The translations under genes were made by a program, and so were the position numbers. The notes beneath the pieces were generated by a model, which was not told where the DNA came from, did not search any database, and saw only the letters and a program-made list of their open reading frames with translations. From contig NZ_JACHGY010000001.1 of NCBI RefSeq assembly GCF_014207595.1, positions 620,001-684,000 on the forward strand: a stretch of 64,000 nt of DNA, read 5' to 3'. Shown here in pieces: positions 1,787 to 23,666 of this stretch. Positions within the stretch are counted from its first letter, which is position 1, and the number at the start of each line of letters is the position of its first letter. Source of the DNA: Algisphaera agarilytica. GTDB lineage: Bacteria > Planctomycetota > Phycisphaerae > Phycisphaerales > Phycisphaeraceae.

Positions 1787-2617
1787 ATGCCGTATCCACC
1801 CGTACAACCCACACCAAGCCTCCGGACCCTGCGATGGCTCTCGTGCGCTCTGGCGTGCCTTCTTCTGGCATCGCTCTCCATTGGCTGCGTAGAGACGCGG
1901 GTGGTCAGCAGCAGCTGGGACAGCCTCCGCGAATTGGCCGACCCACCCACCGAGCAGGGCAAAGACGGCCGACGGGTGCGTGGCCAAGCCTTTGCCGTCG
2001 AACTCCAAACCCTCGAAGGCACCGATCGTCTCCAGCTGGCGTACGACTACGCCAACGTCGTCCGCACCCAGGCACAGATCGCCGACGTGTGGTTCGTCGA
2101 TCGAGGCCAGGACGCGGTGGTGTATGCCGGGCGTTACCCGCGAAAAGATCACCCCGAAGCGCGGGCCAAGCTGAAGGAAGTCCGCGCCGCCACCGTCGAG
2201 GGCAAGCGTGTCTTCCGCAAGGCCAAGCTCGTCGCCATCGACCGCAAGCAAGCGGGCATCCGAGACAAGCACGACCTCAGTCAATACTCGGGCTACCGCA
2301 CGCTGCTGGTCGCGGTGTTCGATGAGAACCACGGCAAAGAGTTCCGCCGATCCGCCGAGGAAACCGCCGAGGCGCTACGCGAAGAACACGAGGTCGACAT
2401 CTACTTCTACCACGGCCCCAACCAATCCCTCGTCACGGCCGGCCTCTTCACGCAGATGGACTTCGTTCCCGTGGACGGCGTCGACAGCTACGGCCCCGAG
2501 ATCCGCCAGATGCAGGAAATCTTCCCGCACACCCAACGCAACGGCGAATACCTCATCGGAGAAGACCTCGCGAGCGAGGACAAACGCGAGCCGACCGTCG
2601 TGGTGCGGGTGCCGTGA
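1787..2617 (+). CDS. Putative lipoprotein of unknown function
   Basis: The 276-residue protein has a hydrophobic N-terminus ending in a lipobox (ASLSIGC, Cys about residue 34), so it should be exported and lipidated. I do not recognise the mature domain. It is mixed alpha/beta with no internal cysteine cluster. Its central region (YDYANVVRTQAQIADVWF, then a YPRKDHPEARAKLKEVR stretch) resembles repeated short alpha/beta units, as in SPOR-like or small-molecule-handling domains, but no signature decides it. No ribosome-binding site precedes the ATG and the gene may have a leaderless message. A G-rich tandem repeat begins right after its stop codon. Confidence 0.75.
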   Translation: MPYPPVQPTPSLRTLRWLSCALACLLLASLSIGCVETRVVSSSWDSLRELADPPTEQGKDGRRVRGQAFAVELQTLEGTDRLQLAYDYANVVRTQAQIADVWFVDRGQDAVVYAGRYPRKDHPEARAKLKEVRAATVEGKRVFRKAKLVAIDRKQAGIRDKHDLSQYSGYRTLLVAVFDENHGKEFRRSAEETAEALREEHEVDIYFYHGPNQSLVTAGLFTQMDFVPVDGVDSYGPEIRQMQEIFPHTQRNGEYLIGEDLASEDKREPTVVVRVP

Positions 2618-2620
2618 GTT

Positions 2621-2680
2621 AGGAGTTGGGAGTTGGGGGTTGGGGGTTGGGGGTTGGGGGTTGGGGGTTGGGGGTTGGGG
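2621..2680. repeat. G-rich heptamer tandem repeat (TTGGGGG)n
   Basis: After the lipoprotein stop the + strand runs through about seven units of TTGGGGG, preceded by two shorter variants (AGGAGTTGGG, AGTTGGG). The G-runs separated by TT are suited to G-quadruplex formation. The first 24 bases (2621-2644) recur exactly, in the opposite orientation, inside lipB at 4447-4470. A second C-rich repeat (CCCCTCA units, 2733-2755) lies at the end of the convergent gene. Confidence 0.9.
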
Positions 2681-2735
2681 AAGCGTATTTCCGAAAGCCC
2701 GCGGATGGCGCAGCCTTCCGCGCGGTTCAAAGCCC

Positions 2736-4133
2736 TCACCCCTCACCCCTCACCCCCCGCACCTTCCAAGCCCCCCACCCCAGCGCCGCATACACCGGCA
2801 GCCACACCGCCAGCGTCAAACCTGTCCCGATCTGATACTCCCCGTCGAACGCCCCGCCGTTGGCGTAGTTCACCCACGCCCAGTACGACCAGGGCAGCGT
2901 CAGGCTCGCGACCCACACGGCCGGGCCCACGATCGTCCGCCCCGCCGACCACGCCACCGGCAAGAGCGCCATCGCCCACAGCAGATACCACGGATGCACC
3001 GTGCTCGACAGACACACCATCGCAAAGAAAAACGTTGTCGCCGCCCGCCACGGCACGCGGTGGAACAGCATCGCCAACACCAACACCCCCATCAGCAACA
3101 CGCCCGACACCAGGTCCGCCCACCGCTTAGCCTGCTTCTGCATCTCCCACACCGGGCCTTCGGATAAAAACGGCTGCACGCCCGCCTCGATCAGCGGGTG
3201 CAGCGATCCGTTGAAGCTCCATCGCTCGACAAACTGCCGTGAGGTTTCGAACATCCCGTCGAGCCCACCCGCCATCAGCGTGAACGGCACGTAAAGCAAC
3301 ACCAGAGCCAACACACACGAACCCGCCGCCAGGAAGATACGGCCCCACCCGCCGACCTCGCTGCGCAGCTTCCACGCCATCAGCAACGCCAACGGCATCA
3401 CGATCGGCTTCACCCCCGCCGCCAACGCCAACAACACCCCCGCCCCGATCGCGCACCACACCGCCAGACGTTGACCCTCCCAGCGCCAAGCCCGCTGGGC
3501 GAGCATCAGCGACCCGATCATCGCCGCGATCCCGATGCCGTCCTGGTGCCCCGCCCACGAGGTTTCCACGATCACCAGCGGGCTCCACGCGTACATCACC
3601 GCCCACCACGGCGACCGCCCCAGGCTCTTGAGCTGAACCAGCAGCAACAACACGATGAGCAGGTCGATCAATGCAAACGCCAAGCGAAACGCCGTGGCCG
3701 CACCGACGCCGGTCCCCGCCTCGCCCGCCCAGAAGTTGTAGGTCTTCGCGACCCCGGCAAAAATCCACTGGCTGGTCGGCTGATAGATCGTCACCAACTC
3801 TTTGTTATTGATCCACGTCATCCACTCGGATGATTCGTAGTCGCCCGACGCCGTCGATGCCTCGATGGATTCGATCGGCGCAGCACCGTAGGGGTTCTGA
3901 CCCGCCGCCAGCATTTGGCCGTCGTAGACGTATCGCCAGATGTCGTCACTCATCGACACCGGCATGAAGAAGACGTAGCCCAGCCGCACCACCGCCGCGA
4001 CGCCGAGGATGATCCACGGCGCGTGCTTGCGGGTGAGCTTGTTGCGTCGGAAGACGAGCAGCGACAGCCCGAGCCAGATCACCGCCGAGCCGATCCACAC
4101 CGTCCAGAGCAGTGCCGCGTCGGGAACGATCAT
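2736..4133 (-). CDS. Polytopic membrane glycosyltransferase, GT87 (DUF2029)-like
   Basis: The 465-residue protein is almost entirely transmembrane helices (about ten). It has an early acidic motif MSDDIWRYVYDGQ (residues 61-73) followed by GQNPY. These are typical of the GT87/DUF2029 and related polyprenol-phosphate-sugar-dependent mannosyltransferases (GT-C fold). It probably adds a sugar to a periplasmic acceptor from a lipid-linked donor. I chose the ATG at 4133 because it overlaps the lipB stop in an ATGA arrangement (4130-4133), implying translational coupling. Longer readings upstream would run through lipB. The last residues (GVRGEG) and the stop are encoded by a CCCCTCA tandem repeat, so the C-terminus may have been rewritten by repeat expansion. 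Confidence 0.8.
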   Translation of the reverse strand: MIVPDAALLWTVWIGSAVIWLGLSLLVFRRNKLTRKHAPWIILGVAAVVRLGYVFFMPVSMSDDIWRYVYDGQMLAAGQNPYGAAPIESIEASTASGDYESSEWMTWINNKELVTIYQPTSQWIFAGVAKTYNFWAGEAGTGVGAATAFRLAFALIDLLIVLLLLVQLKSLGRSPWWAVMYAWSPLVIVETSWAGHQDGIGIAAMIGSLMLAQRAWRWEGQRLAVWCAIGAGVLLALAAGVKPIVMPLALLMAWKLRSEVGGWGRIFLAAGSCVLALVLLYVPFTLMAGGLDGMFETSRQFVERWSFNGSLHPLIEAGVQPFLSEGPVWEMQKQAKRWADLVSGVLLMGVLVLAMLFHRVPWRAATTFFFAMVCLSSTVHPWYLLWAMALLPVAWSAGRTIVGPAVWVASLTLPWSYWAWVNYANGGAFDGEYQIGTGLTLAVWLPVYAALGWGAWKVRGVRGEG

Positions 4134-4882
4134 GCGGTGTCCGCCCCCGCCTTCAGGGCCGAGGCCAGTTGCTGAGCGAGCGTTTGCTTGATGGCATCTA
4201 TCGACGGGCAGTCTCCGCCGAGCAGTTGCTGGAGGCTCGTCACGGGCCGGTTGCCCAGGCCGCAGGGGTCGATGGTCTGGAAGTGCGACAGGTCGGTGGT
4301 GACGTTGATCGCGAGGCCGTGCATGGTGGTGTTCTTGCGGATGCGGACGCCCATGGCGCACAGCTTCGCTGTGCGGGATTTAGGTTTTGGGTTTTGGGGA
4401 TTTGGGGAGACCGCATTCGGTATGGAAGGTTGATTTGTCGCCAAATCCCAACCCCCAACTCCCAACTCCTGCGCGACCCACACGCCGGTCGCGCCTGTTT
4501 CGGTGTGCCCCTCGACCCCAAACGCCGCCGCGGTCCCGATGACGACCTGCTCGAGCAGTCGCATATACCGGCCGAGGTTCAGGCCGTGGTCGTTGAGGCG
4601 GAGGATGGGGTAGGCGACGAGTTGGCCGGGGCCGTGGTAGGTCACGTCGCCGCCGCGGTCGGTCTCGCAGACTTCGATACCCAGTTCTTCGAGCCGTTCG
4701 GGCGTGGCCAGCACGTGGTCGCGGACGCCTTTGCGGTGGCTGACGGTGATGACCGGGTGGTGTTCGACGAGGATGAGCGCGGGCCGGGCCTCGCCGAGGC
4801 TGACCGCGAGGTTGCGCTCACGCTGGAACTCCAGCGCCTCGGCGTACCCCATGCGATCCAGATCAACGATGTCCCAATCCAT
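4130..4882 (-). CDS. lipB: Octanoyltransferase LipB with an in-frame insertion
   Basis: LipB moves octanoyl groups from acyl carrier protein to lipoyl domains, the first step of lipoate synthesis. The 250-residue product has the family signature RGGDVTYHGPGQLVAYP (76-92), the lysine motif AKLCAMGVRI (172-181), TMHGLAINV and the catalytic cysteine in IDPCGLGNRP (Cys207). Most LipB proteins are about 210-230 residues. Here roughly 34 extra residues (139-172) separate GVWVAQ from AKLC, a place where homologues have only a short turn. The insert is rich in Pro, Asn and Gly and is encoded by G/C-run repeat DNA. I chose the ATG at 4882 because GGAAA precedes it; ATGs at 4900 and 4915 are alternatives. 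It is coupled to the GT87 gene downstream. Confidence 0.9.
   Translation of the reverse strand: MDWDIVDLDRMGYAEALEFQRERNLAVSLGEARPALILVEHHPVITVSHRKGVRDHVLATPERLEELGIEVCETDRGGDVTYHGPGQLVAYPILRLNDHGLNLGRYMRLLEQVVIGTAAAFGVEGHTETGATGVWVAQELGVGGWDLATNQPSIPNAVSPNPQNPKPKSRTAKLCAMGVRIRKNTTMHGLAINVTTDLSHFQTIDPCGLGNRPVTSLQQLLGGDCPSIDAIKQTLAQQLASALKAGADTA
4367..4470. repeat. Repeat-derived insertion within lipB
   Basis: This stretch encodes the extra residues of LipB. Its right end (4447-4470) is the exact reverse complement of 2621-2644. Its middle carries TTTTGGG and ATTTGGGG variants (about 4380-4405). Just to its left a perfect hairpin, GCACAGC/GCTGTGC with a 3-base loop (4358-4374), covers the codons of the catalytic lysine motif. 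The insertion keeps the reading frame. Confidence 0.7.
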
Positions 4883-4960
4883 AACGGTTTCCGCGCGCAT
4901 TGATACAACCCGCATGATACGCCAACTGGGTATCACTTCGGCGTATTCCACACAGGAGCA

Positions 4961-21308: not shown

Positions 21309-22199
21309 TCAGCCCGCATGCGACTTCAACAACAACCGCCTGAAGTCCCGCGTCAGCCGTACCGTCGCCCACCAAATCCACAAGACCACCACCAGCACGA
21401 TGCCGACCAGGATCAGCGCGGTCCATTCGTACAGCTTCCCGGGCAGCTGCCAATCCATCCACTCGACCACGTTCGTCGCCACCGCCAACCCCACTATCGC
21501 GCCCACGCCAACGAGGTAACGCTTCCACGTCGCCCGGCAGCGCTGCGCCACCGCGGGCCCGTCCGCCCGCGCCGCCAACGCAAACAGGTGACGCCACGCC
21601 TCGAGCATCGCCACCGCCATCGCCGCCGCCGCGGTGCTGGCCAGCAGGTCGAACGTGCCCCAATCGCCCGACATCATCGGGGCCACCGCCCGCTGGATTT
21701 TCAGGATCGGGTTCACCCCCGACGGGCCGCCGCCGAGTTCGATCCCTTTTTCGCTCCAGGCCGTGACGTAACGCGCAATCAACATGCCCAGCGTCGCCAA
21801 CGCCGCAGCCGCCGCGAGCACCGACGCCCAACGGGCCGACAACCGCGTCCCCCGGTGGTACCACGTCTCCCGGCGGTTGGGTTCCTTGGTCGTCAGCAGC
21901 CACAGCGCCGCGGCCGCCCAGACGATGCCGGGCACCACAAAAAGAACCGTCGCGAGCGCCGCGCCGTGCAGCCAACCCGTCCCGCGCTCGATCCGCTTGA
22001 GCCAACCCGGGTCGGCCCGCTCCAGCCGGTCCGCGTCGTCCCGCTCAACCACATCCACCGGCGCCCCGCACTCGGGACACGCGTTGGCCACCTTCTGCAT
22101 CCGCAGGTTGTAGCCGCACGTCGGGCAGTGCACATCGATGTCGATGTAGCCCTCGGCGTTGAGTCGGACCGGGATGGTGGCGGGGAAGGCGGAGGACAT
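21309..22199 (-). CDS. Zinc-ribbon membrane protein of unknown function
   Basis: The 296-residue protein has an N-terminal zinc ribbon, CPTCGYNLR then CPECGAPV (residues about 25-46), followed by four to five membrane helices. The layout (zinc ribbon in the cytoplasm, then a polytopic region) recurs in planctomycetes with no known function. It is divergent from cca. The 5-bp gap before its ATG is occupied by one arm of an inverted repeat, so its translation signals lie within repeat DNA. Confidence 0.75.
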   Translation of the reverse strand: MSSAFPATIPVRLNAEGYIDIDVHCPTCGYNLRMQKVANACPECGAPVDVVERDDADRLERADPGWLKRIERGTGWLHGAALATVLFVVPGIVWAAAALWLLTTKEPNRRETWYHRGTRLSARWASVLAAAAALATLGMLIARYVTAWSEKGIELGGGPSGVNPILKIQRAVAPMMSGDWGTFDLLASTAAAAMAVAMLEAWRHLFALAARADGPAVAQRCRATWKRYLVGVGAIVGLAVATNVVEWMDWQLPGKLYEWTALILVGIVLVVVLWIWWATVRLTRDFRRLLLKSHAG

Positions 22200-22204
22200 G
22201 GGGG

Positions 22205-22368
22205 TTGGGATTTCGGATTTGAGATTTCGGAAATGATTCGGCGCTGATTAGCCTTATTCCTAACTACAAGATCATACGCAGCCCATTCGCTTGCGTTACG
22301 TTAATGACAAAGACACCGCGTCCGCTGTCCCCCAATCCGAAATCCGAAATCACAAATCCGAAATCCAA
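22205..22368. repeat. Inverted repeat arms abutting two divergent start codons
   Basis: The left arm (22205-22230) reads TTGGGATTTCGGATTTGAG then ATTTCGG. The right arm (22344-22368) is its reverse complement apart from one mismatch and one missing base. The left arm ends 5 bp from the ATG of the zinc-ribbon gene, and the right arm runs into the ATG of cca. The 113-bp centre is less GC-rich and must hold both promoters. The ATTTCGG/ATCCGAAATC unit is repeated within each arm. Confidence 0.85.
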
Positions 22369-23666
22369 TGTCCCGCGACGCCGCCACCACCATCATCCAG
22401 ACCCTCCGCGAGCACGGCCACGTCGCCTACCTCGCCGGGGGGTGTGTGCGCGATCGGCTGCTGGGCGTCGCCCCCAAAGACCACGACGTCGCCACCGACG
22501 CCCCGCCGGATGTCGTGCAGAAACTTTTCCGTCGTTCGCAACCCGTCGGCGAAGCGTTCGGCGTCATCCTCGTTTACGCGCCCGGCATCAACCCCAACGC
22601 CGACGCTGAGCCGCAACGCGGCGAAGCGTCTGGTACCGATCGCCCCCAACGCCGCTTCGTCCCCATCGAAGTCGCCACCTTCCGCACCGAAGGCGTCTAC
22701 TCCGACGGCCGCCGCCCCGACGAAGTCAATTTCACCACCGCCGAGCACGACGCCCAGCGCCGTGACTTCACCATCAACGGCCTGTTCGAAGACCCGCTCC
22801 ACCCCGACACCCCCAACCCCGACGCGGACGGCCACGGCGTGATCGACTACGTCGGCGGACGGGCCGACCTCGAATCCAAAACCCTCCGCGCCATCGGCGA
22901 CCCCGACCGACGGTTCGGCGAAGACTACCTGCGCATGCTCCGGGCCGTGCGCTTCACCACCCGGCTGGGCTTCACGCTCGACCCGTCCACCGCGCAAGCG
23001 ATCCGTAACCTCTCGAAGTTCCTCAGCCAGATCAGCCGGGAACGCATCGGCGGCGAGCTGCAGCTCATGCTCACCACGCCGCACTTCGCCGCCTCGGCCG
23101 ACCTCTTGCAACAGCTCCGCCTCGACGGGCCGACGCTCAACGAAGACCACCTCGACGCCGAGATGTCGGTCCTCACCCGCCTCTCGCCCGACGCGGGCTA
23201 CGCCGCCAAGCTAACCGCCTGGATGATCGACCGGCACGGCCTTGCCGCCGCGACACCCGCACGCGTCCGCCGCTGGCGCAAGGCGCTGTGCCTCAGCAAC
23301 GACGACACCGACACGCTCAATCGGATCCTGCGTCAGCTCCACGCCGCCGAGGACTGGGCGACGATGTCGGTGGCGAAGCGCAAGCGTCTGCTATCGATGA
23401 CCGACTGGGACCAGACGCTGCTGGTCTGGCGGGCGATGAAGCGGGCCGACGCCATCGATGCCGACACCCCCGCGCTCATCGAGGACGGCATCGGCCTGGC
23501 CCCCGCGCCGCTCGTTGACGGCGCGGACCTCATCGCGATGCAGCTCAAGCCCGGGCCGTTGTTCAAGACGCTGCTGGATCAGGTGTACGACGCCCAGCTC
23601 GAGGGCCGGGTGACCGATCGGCAGGCCGCGTTGGCGTGGGTGCGCCAGAGCGCTTCGGAGGGTTAA
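22368..23666 (+). CDS. CCA tRNA nucleotidyltransferase / poly(A) polymerase family
   Basis: The 432-residue class II nucleotidyltransferase has AYLAGGCVRDRLLG (20-33) and the metal-binding DHDVATDA (38-45), the EVATFRTEGVYSDGRRPD strand, the RRDFTINGLF motif (about 137) and the RF-EDYLRMLRAVRF region that selects nucleotides. It adds or repairs CCA ends of tRNA, or adds poly(A). No HD domain is evident. An extra 20 or so residues (about 75-98) separate VYAPG from VPIEVATFR compared with usual members. Its 5' leader is repeat DNA. Confidence 0.88.
   Translation: MSRDAATTIIQTLREHGHVAYLAGGCVRDRLLGVAPKDHDVATDAPPDVVQKLFRRSQPVGEAFGVILVYAPGINPNADAEPQRGEASGTDRPQRRFVPIEVATFRTEGVYSDGRRPDEVNFTTAEHDAQRRDFTINGLFEDPLHPDTPNPDADGHGVIDYVGGRADLESKTLRAIGDPDRRFGEDYLRMLRAVRFTTRLGFTLDPSTAQAIRNLSKFLSQISRERIGGELQLMLTTPHFAASADLLQQLRLDGPTLNEDHLDAEMSVLTRLSPDAGYAAKLTAWMIDRHGLAAATPARVRRWRKALCLSNDDTDTLNRILRQLHAAEDWATMSVAKRKRLLSMTDWDQTLLVWRAMKRADAIDADTPALIEDGIGLAPAPLVDGADLIAMQLKPGPLFKTLLDQVYDAQLEGRVTDRQAALAWVRQSASEG

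Follow-up and report, generated by a model that had tools for sequence, protein, structure and literature searches.

A lipB insert of Algisphaera agarilytica as a probable copy of a dispersed palindromic element built from G-rich heptamers

The lipB locus and its insert

The window, i.e. the whole stretch of 64,000 nucleotides analyzed here (positions 620,001 to 684,000 of contig NZ_JACHGY010000001.1), harbors lipB and several G-rich heptamer arrays grouped into elements A, B and C (Table 1). The lipB product displayed the LplA/B fold with a catalytic Lys and a catalytic Cys; K196 and C230, which we take to be these two residues, were invariant in the LipB alignment. The insert is located just N-terminal of the catalytic lysine, between TGVWV and AKLCAMGVRIR. 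Thermus LipB (2qhs) has zero residues between GVWVGED and KLCAIGV, where the present protein displays residues 163-195; if translation starts at the GTG at 4951, the insert covers residues ~160-193. The initial annotation had recognized about 34 extra in-frame residues beside the catalytic lysine, which was confirmed here, except for its numbering (139-172), which implies a later start.

Table 1. Coordinates of lipB and of the array elements in the window
Feature	Position	Strand	Remarks
Element A, G-rich heptamer array, 9 units of GTTGGGG type	2616..2680	+	between convergent genes
Element A, opposed array, different word GGGGTGA on - strand	2733..2756	-	52 nt away
lipB, octanoyltransferase with 34-residue in-frame insert	4130..4951	-	PF21948, E 1e-36 (profile search); alignment; PDB 2qhs/1w66
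Element B, left arm GGATTTAGGTTTTGGGTTTTGGGGATTTGGG, G-rich heptamers	4376..4406	+	
Element B, spacer, 34 nt	4407..4440	.	
Element B, right arm GGAGTTGGGAGTTGGGGGTTGGGATTTGG, read on - strand	4441..4469	-	contains the 24-mer minus its last base
Element C, left arm TGGGGGTTGGGATTTCGGATTTGAGATTT	22199..22227	+	at start codon of leftward gene
Element C, right arm, GGATTTC words on - strand	22334..22373	-	ends at start codon of rightward gene

Read in DNA order, the insert consisted of GGATTTAGGTTTTGGGTTTTGGGGATTTGGG, the spacer and CCAAATCCCAACCCCCAACTCCCAACTCC, i.e. a G-rich array facing its C-rich counterpart, and constituted palindromic element B (4376-4469); the encoded peptide includes ELGVGGWDLATNQPSIPNAVSPNPQNPKPK. 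The outer end of element B is adjoined by a perfect hairpin, CGCACAGC-TTC-GCTGTGCG (4357-4375), half of which corresponds to the conserved A-K-L-C-A codons of lipB; the remaining half may have arisen at the insertion edge by fold-back copying.

As first reported in the initial annotation, the 24 bases at 2621-2644 (AGGAGTTGGGAGTTGGGGGTTGGG) are the exact reverse complement of 4447-4470 within lipB, and sequence comparison extended this match to 30 nt at 93 %. The 24-mer codes for only eight of the 34 extra residues. The presence of a G-rich heptamer repeat as an in-frame insert, which the initial annotation had proposed, was supported. With at most one mismatch, GTTGGGNGTTGGG had 11 occurrences in the window, compared with a shuffled expectation of 0.54, and a genome search for the repeat unit, as had been suggested, retrieved its core GGAGTTGGGAGTTGGG three times in 4.17 Mb (reversed control: zero). 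The other copy of the 24-mer belongs to the 2616-2680 array of element A, whose two arrays are paired by position and polarity only. Element C (22199-22373) occupies the space separating the start codons of two divergent genes. Because the 2616-2680 array, the lipB insert and element C are separate copies, the 24-mer match links two family members that use a common word and does not denote a source and a daughter copy. A move of the 2621 array into lipB was rejected, the arms being different and both belonging to one family.

In an AlphaFold2 model of LipB (mean pLDDT 85), the core exceeded 90 and residues 161-190, lying between strands 154-160 and 194-205, remained at ~50. The core agreed with those of Thermus and Mycobacterium LipB (2qhs, 1w66). 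Low confidence between two strands of a core matching known LipB proteins led to the prediction that the insert extends a hairpin turn as a disordered segment and leaves the active-site residues in place. Modelling, which the initial annotation had recommended, returned an exposed loop of low confidence. Likely harm to the enzyme, which that annotation had considered, was not supported; the enzyme is probably active, its 34-residue loop being disordered. The mRNA of the insert stretch folded to -42 kcal/mol (a value computed without shuffle control), which makes an effect on expression possible.

Architecture and vocabulary of the elements

The A. agarilytica genome was sampled over 464 kb and at targeted loci; outside the 464 kb the census was partial and pattern-led, and genes were called with a simple home-made hexamer model instead of being taken from curated annotation. 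Strict tandem arrays in the 464 kb had periods of 7 (n = 11), 14 (n = 5), 18 (n = 3) and 12 (n = 1), none being found at other lags from 4 to 20; a looser scan also yielded period-8 pairs. Array loci inside genes numbered five out of 31 in the 464 kb, although 88 % of this sample was coding.

A typical element consisted of two inverted arms, each of ~4.5 G-rich 7-nt words (8-nt in some copies), around a variable spacer. Forty-two clearly paired elements were collected from the sampled part of the genome, and the G-rich strand ran inward in all of them, as it did in 23 out of 26 pairs from G008 and 24 out of 26 from G037. Arm length was nearly constant at about 30-33 nt. Aligned GGATTTC-type arms, which contain only GG tracts, displayed an abrupt outer end, GATTTCGG, with A at position -4 in 28/31 arms of the present genome and 34/34 arms of G037, position -6 being mixed; this fixed end was thus common to two genomes of different families. 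Arms within one element were no more alike (0.874) than arms of different elements (0.867). Target-site duplications of at least five nt showed no excess in the flanks (three genomes). Spacers were mostly unrelated: CGCAAGCG recurred in 11 of the 42 spacers of the present genome, and neither this nor any other recurring spacer motif was found in those of G008 or G037. GACGCAAGCG was encountered four times in the 464 kb, three times inside elements and once beside an array. Single arrays and mixed-word pairs, including element A, also exist.

The words were specific to genomes and the architecture was not. GGGTATC doublets numbered 155 in G008 and zero in nine other genomes. GGATTTS triplets numbered 57 in the present genome, zero in two genomes of the same genus and 91 in G037, which belongs to another family. 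GGRGTTG triplets were found 29 times here and 28 and 12 times in same-genus genomes, a pattern whose reversed control also scores. The arm words GGATTTC, GGRGTTG and GGGTATC are free of stop codons in all six frames; because half of all heptamers have the same property, this is a permissive feature and not proof of selection.

Further repeats were met during this survey. Locus L219 (G037:C32:16400-20400) was a hot spot of palindromic arrays, with about nine paired elements in 3.3 kb and unit types GGATTTC, AGGAGACAGG, GGAACGC, GGTGATTT and GTCAGTA. At positions 571-647 of locus L001 (G000:C1:325442-325518), a palindrome of 8-nt units of GATTTGGT/GATTTTGT type took up nearly all the space separating the stop codon of one ABC-2 permease-like gene from the start codon of its neighbour, and inverted copies of cctcccttgagggaggggctaggggagggtgccgag / ctcggcacccccacccggcctccccctcaagggggagg at 2640-2745 of the same locus formed a further palindromic intergenic repeat. 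A REP-like hairpin, GCTAAGCCGCAAGCGGC, was located at G000:C1:360643/360681, 459387/459426 and 619352, two of these three sites being inverted doublets ~39 nt apart; it constitutes a second, separate repeat family, related words of which appear in some element spacers.

In-frame copies in LipB and other core proteins

The loop ahead of the LipB catalytic lysine varied from four to 58 residues among relatives, and those with only four to ten residues there kept every conserved core residue. Period-7 arrays of differing words occupied this loop in eight out of 52 lipB genes. They formed scored pairs in the present genome, G015, G008 and G033, two opposed arrays below the pairing threshold in G021, and single arrays in G019, G012 and G024. 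Where sampled, the loop word was that of the host genome (GGGTATC in G008 and, in small samples, GGGGTCT-type in G015 and GGAGTG-type in G033). The same-genus genomes G001 and G002 displayed an eight-residue loop without array. G007 had a long Ser/Gly loop without arrays, and 80 kb of its genome contained neither array nor pair. In G008, LipB contained one more extra segment close to the N-terminus (DVKYASPQASGQSGVMSREIKHASPQA...), which looks repetitive too.

Inserts in lipB of relatives had a common architecture and not a common sequence. Since the site is a variable loop, relatives carried inserts of unrelated DNA at exactly the same place, an outcome which the initial annotation had set against its own proposal. 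When the LipB tree was built with the loop excluded, arrays were scattered over it, their presence requiring six changes against a shuffled mean of 7.4; the number of independent gains is uncertain, since support was weak at many forks. LipB proteins of the present genome and G015 were sisters (84/82) with arrays of different words, and a newer array may have replaced an older one at this lipB pair. Repeated entry of arrays into the loop is the simplest reading.

That the lipB insertion is a unique event was not supported: this genome has further in-frame copies of the element inside other core genes. Pfam-supported hosts were rlmN, hemW and purL (the purL array being small), mutL, der, an ABC-F ATPase gene, miaA, a DUF58 protein gene, recJ, a ketoacyl synthase gene, priA and dusB. 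PDB homologues of RlmN, DusB, PriA and RecJ displayed a gap or few residues at the insert position. At locus L173 (G000:C1:2948100-2953100), priA contained two elements of different words (GGATTTC and GGGGCTT types) at two places between the helicase blocks. In G008, in-gene copies were found in what sequence inspection suggests are Tgt, an RsmJ-like methyltransferase, SMC and a glycosyltransferase.

Origin of the insert and relation to known repeats

The lipB insert is best regarded as a copy of a dispersed palindromic element that survived in frame in a tolerant loop, a reading to which we assign a probability of about 0.7. Copies would spread within each genome as discrete, non-autonomous units of a selfish type or, alternatively, the two opposed arms would be written at one break. 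They would mostly be purged from genes, persisting there only if their length preserves the reading frame and the encoded peptide lies in a surface loop that tolerates it; the common words would help, as a stop codon is absent from each of their six frames. The LipB loop between TGVW and the catalytic lysine would be a landing place entered repeatedly in the order. Among the mechanisms considered, entry of the element as one discrete unit is favored most by the evidence. The insertion itself was inferred, because no empty lipB site was found in a close relative, the best LipB matches in GTDB contigs being 47 % identical and hence too far.

Ordinary microsatellite slippage would let heptamer runs expand in place and gain inverted partners by chance or by quasi-palindrome correction. 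Some arrays of the present genome indeed comprise seven to eight perfect units and long runs occur (355115-355168, 598197-598248), as slippage would give; heptamers are moreover described as the commonest long repeat unit in many bacteria and are explained by polymerase slippage (Mrazek 2007, as cited in PMC4679880). Such an origin nevertheless appears unlikely for the elements: pair polarity was constant (42/42), outer phase was fixed in two families, arm length was nearly constant, genome-specific words recurred at many loci and the arms of one element were not homogenised. Fixed ends and polarity disfavor plain slippage. It is similarly doubtful that a single ancestral insertion into lipB was inherited in the lineage, its words drifting later with the genome vocabulary by concerted replacement. 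The sister position of two array-bearing LipB proteins with different words would agree with this, as would the repeated replacement of heptamer classes in Nostoc trnL P6b stems (PMC4476775), but the six changes required on the tree, the array-free eight-residue loop of same-genus G001 and G002, and spacers without visible similarity among lipB inserts all argue against it.

Discrete inverted ends with a fixed terminus could also denote a DDE-transposon MITE whose terminal inverted repeats contain heptamers. This is quite improbable, because such a MITE should leave duplications and share its interior; no excess of target-site duplications was detected in three genomes, and spacers were unrelated within and between genomes except for CGCAAGCG, differing between elements unlike those of ordinary MITEs. 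Spacer homology as a MITE sign was rejected on the same grounds. Under telomerase-like templated addition, each 3' end at a chromosome break would be extended by ~30 nt of G-rich repeat, copied from a fixed template position, before the two ends are sealed with filler. This model predicts inward G-strands, a constant starting phase, arms that are independent of each other, spacers resembling filler, a lack of duplications and a word specific to each genome. It seems rather improbable all the same: the array-bearing genomes G012 and G033 had no Pfam RVT_1 match, and reverse transcriptase was rejected as a necessary factor. That telomerase-like activity writes arms at breaks, making the in-frame inserts in core genes repair scars, is very improbable. 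A selected functional loop built from repeat DNA, serving regulation or partner binding, would explain why it is kept open and in frame in eight genomes; it is highly unlikely given that sequence and length are unconserved and that relatives with four to ten residues there keep all conserved core residues.

A REPIN-like route would fit the element layout. REPINs are REP doublets mobilised by RAYTs, the REPs themselves being palindromic (PMC3116915). The present elements resemble them in having two inverted short repeats around a spacer, in their high copy number, in being mostly extragenic and in forming hairpins. They differ in that their arms are tandem heptamers instead of palindromic REPs, and in that Y1 transposases, among the genomes checked, did not track the arrays. 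A mobilising enzyme for the elements was not found; Y1 transposases (Y1_Tnp) were also present in G007, 80 kb of which contained no pair, and Y1/RAYT was set aside as mobiliser because these transposases are found in genomes with and without arrays.

The dispersed element in lipB and its relatives bear on wider questions. Small palindromic repeats colonise core protein-coding genes in an environmental bacterial order, a situation which a MITE review (PMC10969869) describes at unusually high frequency only for Rickettsia. A genome-specific vocabulary in a shared architecture makes the origin of bacterial heptamer repeats testable, and the inserts provide natural maps of peptide-insertion tolerance for MutL, RecJ, PriA, RlmN, DusB and LipB. 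No account of such elements in Planctomycetes was found in the open-access literature searched.

According to that review, Rickettsia palindromic elements (Ogata 2000, 2002; PMC10969869) are ~150 bp long, form families with conserved peptide and sequence, and lie in frame in unrelated housekeeping genes, apparently where the protein tolerates them. They are the precedent for selfish palindromes in frame and the closest known repeats in effect, as REPINs are in layout. The present elements are likewise small palindromes in frame in unrelated genes but differ in having heptamer arrays as arms, unrelated spacers and words that vary between genomes, without a conserved ~150 bp family or peptide. 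Complementary heptamer repeats also build the cyanobacterial trnL intron P6b stem, in which one class was repeatedly replaced by another (PMC4476775); unlike the present elements, this stem is one RNA locus within an intron, neither protein-coding nor genome-wide.

The G-rich heptameric repeats of Xanthomonas (GGGAATC) and Nostoc (GGGGAYT) described by Rehm et al. 2015 (PMC4692102) are mainly intergenic and near gene ends, prefer about four units and occur as inverted pairs too, 70-75 of them per xanthomonad, an arrangement termed 'convergent orientation', with an intragenic minority of 7-11 % that is larger in Nostoc. The present elements share the G-rich 7-nt words in tandem (specificity for period 7, about four units, arms of 30-33 nt), the inverted pairs, and dispersal with over-representation outside genes. 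Rehm-type repeats were described as quadruplex repeats with one vocabulary per organism studied; the present elements are distinguished by genome-specific words across one order, fixed outer termini, frequently paired arms and a catalogue of in-frame copies in core genes, with recurrent ones at a single enzyme loop.
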